Positions 45,862 through 53,139 of a stretch of DNA of 64,000 nucleotides are shown here, piece after piece. Both the position numbers and the translations under genes were made by a program. The stretch spans positions 7,072,823 to 7,136,822 of the forward strand of contig NZ_AP017422.1 in assembly GCF_002355595.1 (NCBI RefSeq), in the 5' to 3' direction. Position 1 is the stretch's first letter, and every line of letters begins with the position of its first letter. The notes beneath the pieces are model-generated. The model made no database searches, was not told the DNA's origin, and worked only from the letters and a program-made list of their open reading frames with translations. This stretch comes from Filimonas lacunae. GTDB taxonomy: Bacteria > Bacteroidota > Bacteroidia > Chitinophagales > Chitinophagaceae.

Positions 45862-46953
45862 ATGTCAATGTTTTTTACCATCGCAGTGATAGTACTGGTT
45901 TTCCTGGTGATCTTCCAGATTGCTAAAGCCAGTGAGTACGTATCTGTGTTGAAGGGTGAAGAAAAATCCCGTGCGCAAAGCAATAAGATTAACGGTTTCC
46001 TGATGGTGGCTTTTCTTGTGCTGGGCTTAATAGGTGTTTACCTGTGCAACAAGGCTTTATATCCTAAAACTTTATTGCCTGTAGGTAGCGCCAGCGAACA
46101 AGGTGAGAAGGTAGATTCCATGTTAATTGTTACCTTATGGATTACAGGTTTCGTATTTGTAGCCACACAAATAGTATTGTTTGTATTTGCCTATAAGTAT
46201 CAGGAAAATCCAAAACGCAAGGTTTTCTTCTTCCCTCATAACAACACCATGGAGTTGATCTGGACAGTTGTTCCAGCTATCACTCTTACTATTCTGGTAG
46301 TAATTGGTTTACGTAACTGGTTTACTTTTACCAGTGATGCTCCTGCCAATTCACTGCGTGTGGAAGTAACAGGTAAACAGTTTGGCTGGATATTCCGTTA
46401 TGCAGGTAAAGACAACGAATTCGGTAAAAAATATTTCCGTGTAATTGACGACGCAAACAATAACCCACTGGGTCAGGTTTGGGCTGATCAGGAGAAATTT
46501 AATATGAAAGCTGATCCTGCTAACAACGATGATATCGTTCAGTCTCAAACTATGTATTGTGTAAAAGGCAAGCCGGTTCAACTGATCATTGGTTCAAGAG
46601 ACGTAATCCATGACGTAGGTTTACCTCAGTTTCGTATGAAAATGGATGCTGTACCAGGTACACCCACTACTTTGTGGTTTACTCCTAAGTACACTACCAA
46701 AGAAATGAAAGAGAAGACAGGTAACCCTGACTTTATCTACGAGATAAGCTGCGACCAGATGTGTGGTAACGGACACTACTCTATGAAAGGGATCATTGAA
46801 GTAGTAACGCAGGAAGAGTTTGATGTTTGGATGGCAAAACAAAAACCTAACTACCTGGTGGCTAATCCTGATAAGGATCCTAGCAACGCACCAGCTGCCG
46901 CTGCCACTACACCTGTTGTAGACAGCACTAAAAAAGTGGCGCTGGCTCACTAG
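45862..46953 (+). CDS. coxB: Cytochrome c oxidase subunit II with CuA site
   Basis: 363 residues. Three N-terminal membrane helices (about 1-20, 42-60 and 90-115), one more than the classic hairpin, are followed by the TVVPAITLTILVVIGLRNW hydrophobic region and the cupredoxin domain. CuA ligands: earlier H in IHDVGLPQF, C297-DQM-C301-GNG-H305-YS-M308. It accepts electrons from the ActA/ActE hemes. Alanine- and proline-rich C-terminus. Its start lies 55 bp after actF, so ACIII and oxidase are likely on one transcript. Confidence 0.95.
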   Translation: MSMFFTIAVIVLVFLVIFQIAKASEYVSVLKGEEKSRAQSNKINGFLMVAFLVLGLIGVYLCNKALYPKTLLPVGSASEQGEKVDSMLIVTLWITGFVFVATQIVLFVFAYKYQENPKRKVFFFPHNNTMELIWTVVPAITLTILVVIGLRNWFTFTSDAPANSLRVEVTGKQFGWIFRYAGKDNEFGKKYFRVIDDANNNPLGQVWADQEKFNMKADPANNDDIVQSQTMYCVKGKPVQLIIGSRDVIHDVGLPQFRMKMDAVPGTPTTLWFTPKYTTKEMKEKTGNPDFIYEISCDQMCGNGHYSMKGIIEVVTQEEFDVWMAKQKPNYLVANPDKDPSNAPAAAATTPVVDSTKKVALAH

Positions 46954-47030
46954 TTTAGTAATTAGTGTTGACGTAATGTCATTGAAACAAAATTTTAGAA
47001 TAAGTTATATAGTCCAATAAAGAGTTTGAT

Positions 47031-48848
47031 ATGAGTAACGAAGCTGTTCTGCATGCAAACGTGGGTGTTTCCGGGCATGATGCTCATCATGATGAACATC
47101 ACGGGCATCACCATGAGACATTTATCTCCAAGTACGTTTTCAGCATGGATCACAAAATGATTGCAAAACAATTCCTGATAACAGGGATGGTTTGGGCTGT
47201 GCTTGGTGGTTTAATGTCTGTTTTATTCCGTTTGCAATTGGGCTACCCCGATTCTACTTTTCCATGGTTAGAAGATATCCTGGGTAAATGGGCTAAAGGT
47301 GGTCGTATTAGCGCTGAAGCTTATTATGCACTGGTTACTACACACGGTACCGTTCTGGTATTCTTTGTATTAACAGCAGGCTTAAGTGGTACGTTCTCTA
47401 ACTTTCTTATTCCGTTGCAGATTGGTGCAAGGGATATGGCTTCTCCTTTAATGAACATGCTTAGCTACTGGTTTTTCTTCATTGCCAGTATCGTAATGCT
47501 TTCATCTGTATTTGTTGAAACCGGTCCATTCAGTGGTGGTTGGACAGCTTATCCTCCGTTAAGTGCGTTAGGCGATGCTTCACCAGGTTCTAAAACCGGT
47601 ATGGATTTATGGTTAACAGCGATGGCCCTGTTTGTGGTATCTCAGCTGTTGGCTGGTTTGAACTATATTGCTACTATCCTTAACATGCGTACCAAAGGTA
47701 TGAGCATGACCAGGTTGCCATTAACTATCTGGGCATTGTTCTTCACCGCTGTTCTGGGTGTATTATCTTTCCCTGTATTATTCTCAGGTTTTATCCTGCT
47801 GATATTCGACCGTAACTTCGGTACCAGCTTCTACCTGTCTGATATCTTTATTGCTACTACCAACACTGCGTTGCCTAACGAAGGTGGTAGTGCCATCCTT
47901 TATCAGCACTTGTTCTGGTTCCTGGGTCACCCCGAAGTATATATCATCCTGTTACCTGCTATGGGTATGGCGTCAGAGGTATTATCTACCAACGCACGCA
48001 AACCTATCTTCGGTTATATGGCAATGGTGGGATCAATGTTTGCTATCGCGGTTCTGGCCTTCTTAGTATGGGCACACCACATGTTCGTAACCGGATTGAA
48101 TCCATTCCTCGGTTCTATATTCGTATTACTGACCTTGTTAATTGCGGTGCCTTCTGCTATTAAAGTGTTCAACTGGTTAACAACGTTATGGCGTGGTAAT
48201 ATCAGGTTTACTCCTGGTATGATGTTCGCCATCGGTTTTGTAAGCTTATTTATCTCAGGTGGTTTAACTGGTATCTGGTTAGGTAACTCTGCACTGGATA
48301 TTCACCTGCACGATACTTACTTTGTAATTGCCCACTTCCACATAGTAATGGGTGTAGCGTCTATGTTTGGTATGTTTGCCGGTGTTTACCACTGGTATCC
48401 TAAAATGTATGGCCGCTACCTGAACAACACATTGGCTTATATCCACTTCTGGATTACCCTTGTTGGTGCTTACCTGATTTTCTGGCCTATGCACTACGAA
48501 GGTTTAGCCGGCATGCCACGTCGTTACTACGATTACGGTGTTTGGGAAAGCTTTAAACAGTTTATTGAACTGAACAGATTTATCAGTACTGTAGTAATCA
48601 TTGTATTTGCTGCACAGTTCTTCTTCCTGTTTAATTTCTTTTATTCTATTTTCAAAGGAAGAAAGGTTACTACTACCAATCCATGGGGTTCTAACACCCT
48701 GGAGTGGACTACACCTATCAATCCTGGTCACGGTAACTGGGCTGGAGAAATTCCTGAAGTTCACCGTTGGGCTTACGATTACGGTAAGGATGGTCATGAT
48801 TTCATTCCGCAAACAGTACCTGTTGGCGATGATGAGTCGGCACACTAA
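47031..48848 (+). CDS. coxA: Cytochrome c oxidase subunit I (A1-type heme-copper oxidase)
   Basis: 605 residues with twelve membrane helices plus a histidine-rich N-terminus (GHDAHHDEHHGHHHE) that might bind metal. Active-site regions: LVTTHGTVLVFF with the heme a ligand, WFLGHPEVYILLLPAMGM (E in HPEVY marks an A1-type proton channel and Tyr-His copper ligand), AHHMFVTG and HDTYFVIAHFHIVMG. It reduces oxygen to water and pumps protons. Start ATG 47031, 77 bp after subunit II. Confidence 0.97.
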   Translation: MSNEAVLHANVGVSGHDAHHDEHHGHHHETFISKYVFSMDHKMIAKQFLITGMVWAVLGGLMSVLFRLQLGYPDSTFPWLEDILGKWAKGGRISAEAYYALVTTHGTVLVFFVLTAGLSGTFSNFLIPLQIGARDMASPLMNMLSYWFFFIASIVMLSSVFVETGPFSGGWTAYPPLSALGDASPGSKTGMDLWLTAMALFVVSQLLAGLNYIATILNMRTKGMSMTRLPLTIWALFFTAVLGVLSFPVLFSGFILLIFDRNFGTSFYLSDIFIATTNTALPNEGGSAILYQHLFWFLGHPEVYIILLPAMGMASEVLSTNARKPIFGYMAMVGSMFAIAVLAFLVWAHHMFVTGLNPFLGSIFVLLTLLIAVPSAIKVFNWLTTLWRGNIRFTPGMMFAIGFVSLFISGGLTGIWLGNSALDIHLHDTYFVIAHFHIVMGVASMFGMFAGVYHWYPKMYGRYLNNTLAYIHFWITLVGAYLIFWPMHYEGLAGMPRRYYDYGVWESFKQFIELNRFISTVVIIVFAAQFFFLFNFFYSIFKGRKVTTTNPWGSNTLEWTTPINPGHGNWAGEIPEVHRWAYDYGKDGHDFIPQTVPVGDDESAH

Positions 48849-48878
48849 TAACTACAGTTTATTTTAACTAATATGTCT

Positions 48879-48908
48879 GATGCCCTGAGAAATCAGGGCA
48901 TCACTTTT
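48879..48908 (+). terminator. Stem-loop with GAAA loop between coxA and the heme O synthase gene
   Basis: GATGCCCTGA (48879-48888), loop GAAA, TCAGGGCATC (48893-48902), then ACTTTTAA. A 10-bp perfect stem but a weak U-tract. Partial terminator or 3'-protecting structure that lowers expression of the downstream genes. Confidence 0.5.
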
Positions 48909-48927
48909 AAAGCGAAGAAGGAACTTG

Positions 48928-49824
48928 ATGACGGCAGAGATACATAACACGTTTAGTTTGAAGAGCAAACTTCAGGACTACAAGCAGCTGATAAAGTTTA
49001 CACTGAGCTTTACAGTGGTTTTTTCCTGCGTGATTTGTTATTTACTGGCGCCTAAAGTAGTGGAGTACGACTGGATTCAGATTATCCTGTTATTTGTTGC
49101 CGGTATGCTGGTAACAGGTAGTGCCAACGCCATTAACCAGGCAGTGGAAAAAGATACGGATGCAGTAATGAAACGTACGGCAGACAGGCCAGTGGCCAGC
49201 GGTCGTATGTCGGTAAAAGAAGCTTACACGTTTGCACTGATTGCCGGCCTGGTAGGAGTGTTTATGATGTATCACTTCTTTAACCTGTCTTCTGCATTGG
49301 TTTCCCTGTTTAGTTTGTTCCTGTATGCTTTTATTTACACCCCGGTTAAAAAAATCAGTTCTATCGCCGTTCTGGTGGGCGCTGTTCCGGGAGCTTTACC
49401 TTGCTTAATTGGCTGGGTAGCGGGTAACGACGATTTTGGAGCAGGTGGCTGGGCTTTATTCGGCATCCAGTTTTTATGGCAGTTTCCGCATTTCTGGGCA
49501 ATAGCCTGGGTGGCGCATGGAGATTACAGTAAAGCAGGTTTTAAATTATTACCTGCTGATAAGGGACCCACTAAGTTTACAGCTGTTCAATGTGTGATGT
49601 ATGCGGTGTTGATGATCCCTGTTTGTATGCTGCCTTATTATTTTGGGTTAACAGGTATTGTGAGTTTCTGGATAGTGCTGGTATTAAATGGTTTCCTGGT
49701 AATGCAATGTGTGCGGTTGTTTATAGCAATGGATATTAAGTCGGCACGCCGGGTAATGTTCAGCAGCTATATATATCTGCCGCTGGTATTACTGGCTTTA
49801 CTGGCAGACAAAATTCATCATTAA
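48928..49824 (+). CDS. cyoE: Heme O synthase (protoheme IX farnesyltransferase)
   Basis: 298 residues from ATG 48928 (a TTG 3 nt earlier is ignored). UbiA-type prenyltransferase with nine membrane helices, NAINQAVEKDTDAVMKRTADRPVASGRMS and a YTPVKKISSIAVLVGAVPGALPCLIGWVA stretch. It adds the farnesyl group to heme b, the first step to heme A for subunit I. Heme A synthase CtaA is not in the window. Also called ctaB. Confidence 0.95.
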   Translation: MTAEIHNTFSLKSKLQDYKQLIKFTLSFTVVFSCVICYLLAPKVVEYDWIQIILLFVAGMLVTGSANAINQAVEKDTDAVMKRTADRPVASGRMSVKEAYTFALIAGLVGVFMMYHFFNLSSALVSLFSLFLYAFIYTPVKKISSIAVLVGAVPGALPCLIGWVAGNDDFGAGGWALFGIQFLWQFPHFWAIAWVAHGDYSKAGFKLLPADKGPTKFTAVQCVMYAVLMIPVCMLPYYFGLTGIVSFWIVLVLNGFLVMQCVRLFIAMDIKSARRVMFSSYIYLPLVLLALLADKIHH

Positions 49825-49845
49825 CGGTATTAAATTTTTGAAGTG

Positions 49846-50433
49846 ATGTATATGAGTGCGGTGAGTACAGACACGGATACACAGAAAAAAAGAATACACC
49901 CTCACAAGTTTACCTTGTGGGTAGCCATGGGCAGCATTATTATGATGTTTGCTGGTTTAACCAGTGCCTATGTGGTGAAAAGAGCACAGAGCAAATGGAT
50001 TGAGTTCGATCTGCCTGTGACTTTCTGGATAGCTACGGTGGTTATTTTAATCAGCAGCGGTACTATTCACCTTGCCTTAAAGGCTTTTAAAGCAAGAGAA
50101 ATGGCGCGCTACCGTTTACTGATCACTATTACCGCGGTATTAGGTTTATTATTTGCCGGTTTACAACTGGTTGGCTTTTTACAGGTAAACCACGAGGTGC
50201 CTATGCTGTATGAAAACAGCAACCCGTCTTCTTCCTTCCTGGGTATTATCGGCGGATTGCATGCTTTACACGTATTAGGTGGTGTAGTGGCTATACTGGT
50301 GATATTCTTTAGGGCTTATAGTGTGAAAAACAAACAGTACGCGAGCACACCGGTGGAAATCGTGGCTACTTACTGGCACTTTGTTGACATACTCTGGATA
50401 TACTTATTTGTATTTTTTAACTGGATTGGATAG
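49846..50433 (+). CDS. Cytochrome c oxidase subunit III-like protein (first copy)
   Basis: 195 residues from ATG 49846 (GTG 49843 and ATG 49852 are alternatives). Five membrane helices of the CoxC family, with the start HKFTLWVAMGSIIMMFAGLTSAYVVKR, FLGIIGGLHALHVLGGVVAILVIFFRAYS and the closing TYWHFVDILWIYLFVFFNWIG. It lies 21 bp after heme O synthase and 33 bp before a second subunit III gene. One of the two probably acts as the true subunit III; the other may be a structural partner. Confidence 0.9.
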   Translation: MYMSAVSTDTDTQKKRIHPHKFTLWVAMGSIIMMFAGLTSAYVVKRAQSKWIEFDLPVTFWIATVVILISSGTIHLALKAFKAREMARYRLLITITAVLGLLFAGLQLVGFLQVNHEVPMLYENSNPSSSFLGIIGGLHALHVLGGVVAILVIFFRAYSVKNKQYASTPVEIVATYWHFVDILWIYLFVFFNWIG

Positions 50434-50466
50434 ATTAAATTTGCGAACGAAATTTCCTTAATTACA

Positions 50467-51138
50467 ATGGCAACGACAGCTACAACAAAACCCAAATACT
50501 GGGCGGGCGGAAGAAGCCCTTTTAACGTGGAGTACGGCAAGGTGATGATGTGGTACTTCCTGATGAGTGATGCCTTTACATTTGGTGCATTCCTGATTGC
50601 TTATGGTACTACCCGTTTTGCCACTAACGGATGGCCTGACCCTAACCACGTGTTTAATTCATTTCCTGGATTGGGCGCTGGTTATCCATTGTTGTTTGTA
50701 AGTTTAATGACTTTTATCCTGATCGTAAGCTCTGTTACCATGGTACTGGCAGTGAAAGCTGGCCAGGAAATGAGAAAACAGGCGGTAGTTAAAAACCTGA
50801 TCTGGACTATTATAGGTGGCTTAGCTTTCTTAAGCTGTCAGGCCTGGGAATGGACACACCTGTTCCACGAAGGCGCATGGTGGGGTAGCAATCCTTTCCC
50901 TAACCATGATGGCACTTTAAGCAGCCCTAACTTCACTAACTTCTTCTTCACTATTACTGGTTTCCACGGTTTCCACGTATTGTCTGGTGTGGTTATCAAC
51001 ATTGTAATGCTGATTATGACCCTGAATGATAAATTCGAGAAAAGAGGTCATTACCTGATGATAGAAAAAGCTGGTTTATACTGGCACTTTGTAGACTTAG
51101 TATGGGTATTCGTATTTACCTGTTTCTATCTGATCTAA
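50467..51138 (+). CDS. Cytochrome c oxidase subunit III (second copy)
   Basis: 223 residues, five to seven membrane helices. GGRSPFNVEYGKVMMWYFLMSDAFTFGAFLIAYG, FLSCQAWEWTHLFHEG, GFHGFHVLSGVVINIVML and AGLYWHFVDLVWVFVFTCFYL are classic subunit III stretches, better preserved than in the preceding gene. Subunit III stabilises the proton pump. 30 bp before the subunit IV gene. Confidence 0.93.
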   Translation: MATTATTKPKYWAGGRSPFNVEYGKVMMWYFLMSDAFTFGAFLIAYGTTRFATNGWPDPNHVFNSFPGLGAGYPLLFVSLMTFILIVSSVTMVLAVKAGQEMRKQAVVKNLIWTIIGGLAFLSCQAWEWTHLFHEGAWWGSNPFPNHDGTLSSPNFTNFFFTITGFHGFHVLSGVVINIVMLIMTLNDKFEKRGHYLMIEKAGLYWHFVDLVWVFVFTCFYLI

Positions 51139-51168
51139 ATTTAAAAACGAATTCATAATCTTATTGTA

Positions 51169-51639
51169 ATGGAACATACATCAGAAGTATTACATCACGA
51201 AGGGCACGTTCACCACGATGCGGAAGCTGGAAAGAAAGAGGTTAAAAAAATTACGCTTTACCTGTCTGTTTTAACCATTTTGGAATTGATTGTTGGTTAT
51301 TATATGTACAGTGCTAAAATAGAAGAAGGTGCTTTCAGAAGCTTTCTGAAAACTTTAATCATCATTATGATGATGTGGAAAGCCACTTATATCGTTGGCT
51401 ATTTCATGCACTTAAAACATGAAATCCGCAACTTCCTGATGACGATTGTTGTTCCTCTTTTCCTGTTCATCTGGTTTATCATCGCATTCCTTGCTGATGG
51501 CCATTCTTATAACAACCTGAGAAATAAGTACGACAAGGCTTATGTGGAAAGGTCTAAGATGAAAATGGAAGTGAAAGAACACGAATCTCACGAGAAAGAA
51601 CACGCTGCTGGTGAAGAAAAAACCGGTGAGCTGCATTAA
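51169..51639 (+). CDS. Cytochrome C oxidase subunit IV family protein
   Basis: 156 residues, three membrane helices (about 28-48, 63-82 and 90-108). The WKATYIVGYFMHLKHEIRNF stretch is the family signature. The N-terminus is histidine-rich (EVLHHEGHVHHDAEAG), as is coxA, and the C-terminus is Lys/Glu-rich. It is a small accessory subunit. A terminator follows. Confidence 0.9.
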   Translation: MEHTSEVLHHEGHVHHDAEAGKKEVKKITLYLSVLTILELIVGYYMYSAKIEEGAFRSFLKTLIIIMMMWKATYIVGYFMHLKHEIRNFLMTIVVPLFLFIWFIIAFLADGHSYNNLRNKYDKAYVERSKMKMEVKEHESHEKEHAAGEEKTGELH

Positions 51640-51731: not shown

Positions 51732-52538
51732 ATGAATAAGAAAGCGCTACTGGCACTATGTATTGCCATAATGATTCCGGTGGTAAGTTACCTGATAATG
51801 AAATATGCCAGCACTGATGCGGTAATTGTGCCTCGTCGCATGCTGCTGGATACTACTATTACCCGGGTAGAAAGTGGAAAGGAAATAACAGACAGTATCT
51901 GGCATGTTACCAAAAATATCCACCTGGTAAACCAGCTGGGCGATACGGTAGGTTTATACGATGTACCGGGTAAGGTAATCGTAGCTGATTTCTTTTTTAC
52001 CAGCTGCGGCAGCATTTGTCCTACTCTTACCAGCAATATGCTTAAAATGCAACGCTCCTTTAATAAAGGCGGTGAAGCCAGGAATAAGATAGATACCTCC
52101 GTTGTACAGTTTATGTCGTTTACGGTTGATCCGGAACGTGATTCTGTTACCCGCCTTAAAAATTACGCTGACCACTTTGGCGTAAACCATGATAACTGGT
52201 GGATGCTTACCGGACCTAAAGACAGCATTTACCGCTTTGCCTTTGAAGAACTGAAAGTAGATAAGTTCAGTACCGAGCCTATTGACCCGGATTTTGTGCA
52301 CACCAGCCGTTTTGTATTGATTGACAAAGACCACTATGTACGCGGTTATTACAACGGGTTAGATTCTGTTTCCCTACGCAAGCTGGCCCGCGACATTGGG
52401 GTACTGATGCTGGAAAAAGATAGTATGCACCCTGGCAAATTACCTTTCGATCCTTTGTTAATGCTGGTGTTTCTTATTATTTCGGTAGTAGTGGTAGTGG
52501 TGGTGTTAACGGTTGTTTCTAAAAAGAATAAAGCATAA
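51732..52538 (+). CDS. SCO1/SenC family copper chaperone
   Basis: 268 residues with an N-terminal anchor (about 4-24) and a further helix at the C-terminus (about 238-262, PLLMLVFLIISVVVVVVVL). Thioredoxin-like fold with copper ligands C92-G-S-I-C96 in FFFTSCGSICPTLTSNM and a later histidine (FVHTSRFVLIDKD). SCO proteins load CuA of subunit II. The extra C-terminal membrane helix is not in most SCO proteins. Placed 92 bp after the subunit IV gene. Confidence 0.93.
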   Translation: MNKKALLALCIAIMIPVVSYLIMKYASTDAVIVPRRMLLDTTITRVESGKEITDSIWHVTKNIHLVNQLGDTVGLYDVPGKVIVADFFFTSCGSICPTLTSNMLKMQRSFNKGGEARNKIDTSVVQFMSFTVDPERDSVTRLKNYADHFGVNHDNWWMLTGPKDSIYRFAFEELKVDKFSTEPIDPDFVHTSRFVLIDKDHYVRGYYNGLDSVSLRKLARDIGVLMLEKDSMHPGKLPFDPLLMLVFLIISVVVVVVVLTVVSKKNKA

Positions 52539-52554
52539 TTTTTAAAGTATAATC

Positions 52555-53139
52555 ATGTTACAGGCTAGTTTACAGAAGAATGATAAAAAGGCCGGTTGGC
52601 TTATTGGTATATTTTCGGTTGTGGTGTTTGCAGTTGTGGTGGCATTGGGTAAAATACAGTTGAACGTACAATTAGGGTTTAATGTACATGTGTTTGCGTT
52701 GTTTAACGCAGTAGTAAACGCTATGGTAGCGGTGCTTTTAGTAGCCGCCCTGGTAGCGGTGAAGCAAGGCAGGTTTATAGCCCACAAAAAAATTATGATG
52801 GTAGCATTGGTGTTATCCATCGCCTTCCTGGTTTCTTATATCACACACAAACTGTTTGCAGGTGAAGCTCGCTTTGGCGATGCAGATCATGATGGTTTGG
52901 TAAGTGATGCAGAAAAGGCTGCTGTTGGTGGTATGCGCATGGTGTATTTCATTATTCTCAGTACGCACGTGTTCCTGGCCGCGGTAATATTACCTTTTAT
53001 ACTGTTCACTGCTTACAGGGGTTTAACCGCCGAGTTTCCGGCACATAAAAAAATAGCCAGGTATACCTGGCCATTATGGTTTTATGTAGCTGCAACAGGA
53101 CCTATCGTATATGCTATGATAAGTCCTTATTACAGGTAA
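52555..53139 (+). CDS. DUF420 membrane protein with an EF-hand-like loop
   Basis: 194 residues with about five membrane helices (about 15-32, 45-68, 80-98, 125-150, 168-188). DUF420/CtaM-type assembly proteins lie beside cytochrome oxidase genes; here it follows SCO by 16 bp. Conserved stretches: FNVHVFALFNAVVNAMVAVLLVAAL, HKLFAGE and YFIILSTHVFLAAVILPF. Unusual: residues 109-120 read D-A-D-H-D-G-L-V-S-D-A-E, a complete EF-hand calcium loop (acidic residues at positions 1, 3, 5 and 12, G at 6, V at 8), between two helices. See the finding. Confidence 0.9.
   Translation: MLQASLQKNDKKAGWLIGIFSVVVFAVVVALGKIQLNVQLGFNVHVFALFNAVVNAMVAVLLVAALVAVKQGRFIAHKKIMMVALVLSIAFLVSYITHKLFAGEARFGDADHDGLVSDAEKAAVGGMRMVYFIILSTHVFLAAVILPFILFTAYRGLTAEFPAHKKIARYTWPLWFYVAATGPIVYAMISPYYR

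Follow-up and report, generated by a model that had tools for sequence, protein, structure and literature searches.

A predicted EF-hand-type calcium loop in the DUF420/CtaM oxidase-assembly protein of Filimonas lacunae and its relatives

Introduction

Why would a membrane protein encoded at the end of a cytochrome oxidase operon carry what looks like a calcium-binding loop? This question is raised by a gene of Filimonas lacunae (Chitinophagaceae, Bacteroidota), located in a 64,000-nucleotide stretch of contig NZ_AP017422.1 (positions 7,072,823 to 7,136,822; hereafter, the window). A preliminary description, made from the DNA letters and their translations, had pointed to an EF-hand loop in its DUF420 product and proposed that calcium could gate or stabilize the delivery of copper or heme to the oxidase at the periplasmic face.

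In the published work, the CtaM proteins studied experimentally are those of Bacillota. CtaM is needed for oxidase assembly in S. aureus and B. subtilis (PMC4958251, PMC9145763) and acts late, with hemes a and a3 still being inserted without CtaM in B. subtilis (PMC9145763, PMC13344008). A 2026 study suggests copper export to Sco as the role of the B. subtilis protein (PMC13344008), and PMC9145763 leaves the task of CtaM in oxidase biogenesis unassigned. With respect to calcium, Dx[DN]xDG loops are reported to bind Ca2+ in many settings other than EF-hands, most of them periplasmic or extracellular, and one such loop grafted into CD2 produced a new site (PMC3123361). The term DUF420 is absent from PMC3123361, the term calcium is absent from the main texts of PMC9145763, PMC13344008, and PMC4958251, and we found no report of a Dx[DN]xDG or EF-type loop in DUF420/CtaM in the open-licence literature. 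What appears to be new here is the calcium-type loop in DUF420/CtaM; Dx[DN]xDG loops outside EF-hands are already known.

Results

The DUF420 gene closes an oxidase operon

The gene (52555..53139, forward strand) encodes a 194-aa CtaM/YozB-type membrane protein with five predicted transmembrane (TM) helices, which matches PF04238 (DUF420) with 129.7 bits against a gathering cut-off of 30.5. Two further traits of DUF420/CtaM proteins, namely, four or five TM helices and linkage to heme-copper oxidase genes, are also found, as the AlphaFold2 model of the window protein has five long helices and the gene ends a COX2-COX1-CtaB-COX3-COX3-COX4-Sco run on one strand. Directly upstream, with a gap of 16 bases, lies the gene for Sco (SCO1/SenC; 51732..52538, forward strand; PF02630, 81.9 bits), preceded by the six remaining genes of the operon (45862..51639, forward strand). 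COX2 (start 45862), the CtaB-like UbiA protein (start 48925), COX3 (start 49843), and COX4 (start 51169) are assigned by Pfam; COX1-like (start 47031) is named by our own reading rather than on a Pfam basis, as is COX3-like (start 50467), which aligns with COX3. The protein thus resembles DUF420/CtaM (YozB) in its Pfam family, its five TM helices, and its place beside Sco in an oxidase operon, and differs from the 112 of 296 sampled relatives that have a short loop by carrying a 14-residue calcium-type loop.

The F. lacunae genome contains a second DUF420 gene (L001:1357-1911, position 2994954), which lies away from the oxidase operon, encodes a short loop (YGGGG), and has as its neighbor an ORF that we read as carbonic-anhydrase-like. 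Two congeners have one DUF420 match each, compared with the two genes of F. lacunae. Judging from match spans, another genome (G068) apparently carries one long and one short DUF420 copy.

An EF-hand-type loop with conserved ligand positions

The loop, DADHDGLVSDAE, a predicted Ca2+ site, spans residues 109-120 (52879..52914, forward strand), and its translation agrees with the preliminary description. It forms most of an insert of 14 residues (109-122; 52879..52920, forward strand; exact ends dependent on the alignment) relative to the short FGGEG-type loop of other DUF420 proteins. At the DNA level, the pattern D-x-[DN]-x-[DN]-G-x-hydrophobic-x-x-x-E occurs 5 times in the 7.8-Mb genome, including the loop in the window, versus 0 occurrences for a reversed-pattern control in the same genome. 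Together with the conservation of the ligand positions, this indicates that the loop is not a chance occurrence, the comparative evidence being decisive. No Pfam EF-hand model matches the whole protein (E values up to 5) or fragments of the loop (E values up to 10), and where canonical EF-hands occur in pairs, we observe a single loop in 194 residues.

Across 296 distinct DUF420 proteins, the TM3-TM4 loop stretch has 18-22 residues in 112 and 33-35 residues in 184, with none in between (the proteins were fetched favoring long-loop matches, so that 184/296 does not measure prevalence). The short form carries a glycine-rich loop of the FGGEG type, in agreement with the preliminary description. 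All EF-hand liganding positions (D1, D/N3, D/N/S5, S/T/D/E/N9, and E12) are kept in 182 of the 184 distinct long loops: position 1 is D in 183, position 3 is N or D in 184, position 5 is D, N, or S in 182, position 9 is S, D, T, E, or N in 184, and position 12 is E in 184. Position 6 is G in 166 long loops, and positions 2, 7, 10, and 11 drift (entropy, 2.3 to 2.8 bits). After thinning to less than 60% identity, the five ligand positions are kept in all 30 remaining long loops. Two proteins, L255 and L259 (DTDGIKGLSEAE and ETDGIKGLSEAE), share a degenerate version in which the long-loop length is kept and both the position-5 ligand and Gly6 are lost.

The fourth loop residue is histidine (His4) in 135 of the 184 long loops, and 13 of the 30 that remain after thinning lack it. 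Among the family-genome matches listed, counted by eye, His4 is found in 8 of 11 DUF420 loops versus 6 of 139 other EF patterns (Fisher P ~8e-8). A plain Ca2+ site does not account for this excess, which is the chief point that our analysis leaves unexplained. Three genomes of the family (G004, G021, and G027) have 13-20 EF-pattern copies each among the matches listed, and several of these copies share a contig at spacings of a few hundred to a few thousand bases, the kind of layout found in large repetitive proteins.

Predicted structure: half an EF-hand on the periplasmic side

The AlphaFold2 model, computed from 148 sequences (pLDDT 94.5), places helices at residues 10-30, 46-70, 74-102, 118-124, 126-157, and 161-192. 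In EF-hands, the exit helix begins at loop position 10, which is where the short helix at residues 118-124 (52906..52926, forward strand) begins in the model. The proposed placement of the loop between two helices therefore holds for the exit helix from residue 118 and fails on the other side, where TM3 stops at residue 102 and six residues separate it from the loop, so that the model lacks the canonical helix-loop-helix arrangement. As modeled, the loop and its exit helix are half an EF-hand, without an entering helix. For the short-form paralogue of F. lacunae (L001), structure prediction gives a plain nine-residue turn at the same site. A PDB sequence search yielded no DUF420 structure, its four matches (E of 0.017 or worse) including none that is DUF420 by name.

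Two lines of evidence place the loop outside the cytoplasm, as had been proposed. In all 148 proteins aligned, an excess of K+R assigns the N-terminus and loops 2 and 4 to the inside (positive-inside rule), and the EF-type loop is therefore outside, in the periplasm. Independently of these counts, three ORFs of the Verrucomicrobiota set (L345:364-1539, L346:376-1530, and L348:471-1673) have DUF420 fused to a C-terminal DUF1573, which is an exported domain; since DUF1573 sits after the last TM helix, the loop lies on its side of the membrane. A DSSCSCL motif is present in two of these three fusions, and the fused gene adjoins an ORF read as CtaB-like in L345 and L348. A cytosolic position combined with a lack of conservation in relatives, named in the preliminary description as grounds for dismissing the loop, is the opposite of what the predicted topology and the alignments indicate.

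Compared with canonical EF-hands of the calmodulin type, the loop shares the 12-residue consensus and the exit helix at position 10; it differs in being single, unpaired, without a helix directly before it, and unrecognized by Pfam EF-hand models. With the non-EF-hand Dx[DN]xDG loops of Rigden et al. (PMC3123361), it has the following in common: D-x-[DN]-x-[DN]-G, a hydrophobic position 8, a later acidic ligand, a periplasmic location, and presence in only part of the homologues. The extended trait D-x-[DN]-x-[DN]-G-x-hydrophobic-[DSTN], conserved across homologues, is found here as well; the difference is one of context, here the hairpin that joins two TM helices in a polytopic assembly factor.

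Conserved histidines across the membrane

Four histidine positions are invariant or nearly so among the 296 distinct relatives. His98-Lys99 (52846..52851, forward strand) lies at the periplasmic end of TM3, with His at 98 or 99 in 296/296; His138 (52966..52968, forward strand), inside TM4, is kept in 296/296; and His77 (52783..52785, forward strand) and His164 (53044..53046, forward strand), both on the cytoplasmic side, are kept in 295/296 each. These residues would fit a route for copper through the membrane, with the EF-type loop following its periplasmic end. His99 itself is found in 287 of the 296 proteins, the other nine having Lys or Arg there and, without exception, His98 instead. The nine are L002, L003, L004, L137, L219, L250, L262, L093, and L094, with the genus of the window protein represented among them.

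Taxonomic distribution and repeated gain and loss

A DUF420-type match was obtained in 233 of 244 genomes drawn from the family of F. lacunae, and in at least 96 of these genomes the match spans the loop (by match length, counted by eye). Its occurrence there and in two congeners (L003 and L004) indicates that the loop is not a sequencing error, a concern raised in the preliminary description. The class search gave a DUF420 match in 350 of 395 genomes, with at least 44 long-loop spans, and by sequence the long loop is present in at least 13 families of the class. Among the named carriers are Sediminibacterium, Niastella, Chitinophaga, Pedobacter, Mucilaginibacter, Flavobacterium, Phaeodactylibacter, Neolewinella, and Flammeovirga. 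Longer loops fetched from other classes of the phylum (L092-L095) are not EF-like. Outside Bacteroidota, the long loop is found in Luteolibacter; of 112 genomes drawn from the Verrucomicrobiota order of this genome, 86 have a DUF420 match, 3 of them with the long loop. On these sequence comparisons, the loop is a widespread all-or-none insert and not peculiar to the window protein.

Both forms occur within six genera of the family (by match spans, with sequences for those fetched). In a Flavobacterium-like genus, a long and a short form are ~91% identical in protein and 82.6% identical in DNA outside the loop, and a Verrucomicrobiota pair, L333 (long) and L340 (short), shares 82% identity; the pair L250/L265, labeled as one genus, spans two genera and was left out of the comparison. 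On a FastTree tree of 244 proteins, built without the insert, we count at least 25 state changes versus at least 60 for shuffled labels, and, where the DUF420 and Sco trees are compared, 22 changes for the former and 32 for the latter (minimum after shuffling, 58-63), all of these counts being rough, as the trees are of short proteins. A rooted tree takes 39 losses or 37 gains, between which gain and loss are indistinguishable. As judged from these trees, the loop is inherited inside clades, yet has been gained or lost many times.

Replacement of the whole gene as the source of the two forms was considered and rejected. The closest long/short pairs are less alike only in the ten residues after the loop (similarity of 0.60, versus 0.71 and 0.75 in same-form pairs), the rest of the protein being not less alike, although the surplus of state changes in the Sco tree is compatible with some transfer. 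Among residues covarying with the loop in DUF420, only positions near the loop stand out. A Sco-like ORF adjoins the DUF420 gene in 171 of 221 long-loop loci and in 93 of 118 short-loop loci (some loci were fetched twice), indicating that the long and short forms fill the same post.

Comparison with oxidase subunit III

In a Foldseek search with the DUF420 AlphaFold2 model (m897b5e5176a7), the first 11 PDB rows are oxidase or respirasome chains (E, 0.28 to 1.5), which we take to be subunit III from chain letter and length. Homology to subunit III is not supported: these Foldseek matches lack significance, VIA Z is ~8 to 10.6 for oxidase chains, no better than the ~10 to 10.9 of designed four-helix bundles, hhalign gives DUF420 versus COX3 a probability of 6.9%, and a broader profile gives E of 0.006 and 0.067 for two COX3 sets versus 0.013 and 0.025 for the Sco and CtaB controls. 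We regard it as a weak lead. A resemblance to the EF loop in the second COX3 (NHDGTLS) was rejected, with NHDG present in only 6 of 68 pattern-readable loops from 180 COX3 proteins.

Discussion

We consider the long form of DUF420 to be, most probably, a copper-delivery protein with a structural, near-permanently filled Ca2+ site at its periplasmic mouth. The periplasmic TM3-TM4 loop of this DUF420/CtaM-type assembly factor would exist in two forms, the 14-residue insert turning it into half an EF-hand in which a Dx[DN]xDG loop is followed by an exit helix. One periplasmic Ca2+ would be bound more or less permanently, fixing the loop and the beginning of TM4 as a rigid platform next to His98/99, the point at which copper would pass to Sco or the oxidase. 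Of the two cargoes originally suggested, copper fits the B. subtilis work better, and heme sits poorly with the insertion of hemes a and a3 without CtaM (PMC9145763, PMC13344008). Some observations go against a structural site: Pfam EF-hand models give no match, the two long loops without the position-5 ligand keep their length, His4 is much more frequent than in EF patterns elsewhere, and the short form in the same operon position implies that the core function can do without the site.

The gating proposed in the preliminary description would have Ca2+ binding and release switch the copper hand-off or oxidase assembly with outside calcium, which we consider unlikely. The all-or-none loop, with its frequent switches between relatives (at least 22 changes on the DUF420 tree), is as expected of a tuning device, and signaling and regulatory roles are described as frequent among known Dx[DN]xDG proteins (PMC3123361). 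Calcium is, however, usually much higher outside than inside (PMC3123361), and the site would stay filled unless its affinity were millimolar; the site is also single, without a partner EF-hand or an entering helix, and we found no correlate of regulation. On the high-calcium side of the membrane, the structural reading is simpler. We would likewise give little credence to a broader form of the idea, in which a transplantable calcium module, gained and lost as a unit and usually bringing His4 beside His98/99, would render copper transfer to Sco or the oxidase dependent on outside calcium.

The excess of His4 might be accommodated if the loop bound or passed copper or another transition metal, either alone or on a Ca2+-pinned scaffold. 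Position 4 is non-liganding in EF-hands, and the D/N/E oxygen ligands suit hard metals. Copper handling has been proposed for CtaM (PMC13344008), and the loop does come after the invariant His98/99; with about a quarter of all loops, and 13 of 30 after thinning, lacking His4, we nevertheless find a transition-metal arm quite improbable. Least probable of all is a metal-free acidic spacer, simply inherited as a soluble linker or as a docking patch: the existence of short forms means that the insert is dispensable, and two degenerate loops (L255 and L259) are tolerated, but a spacer would not keep D1, D/N3, D/N/S5, and E12 in 182 of 184 loops while neighboring positions vary.

The predicted periplasmic Ca2+ site offers a concrete handle on CtaM: natural pairs with and without the loop, ~91% identical elsewhere, exist in the Flavobacterium-like genus. 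It also bears on the open question, set out in PMC3123361, of whether Dx[DN]xDG loops move between proteins whole or form in place through changes to a loop already there, the DUF420 case being one in which the entire loop appears and disappears within one protein family. A conserved, outward-facing loop that is complete in some relatives and wholly lacking in others suggests a role for calcium in oxidase assembly and that, in many Bacteroidota, outside calcium may support this process.
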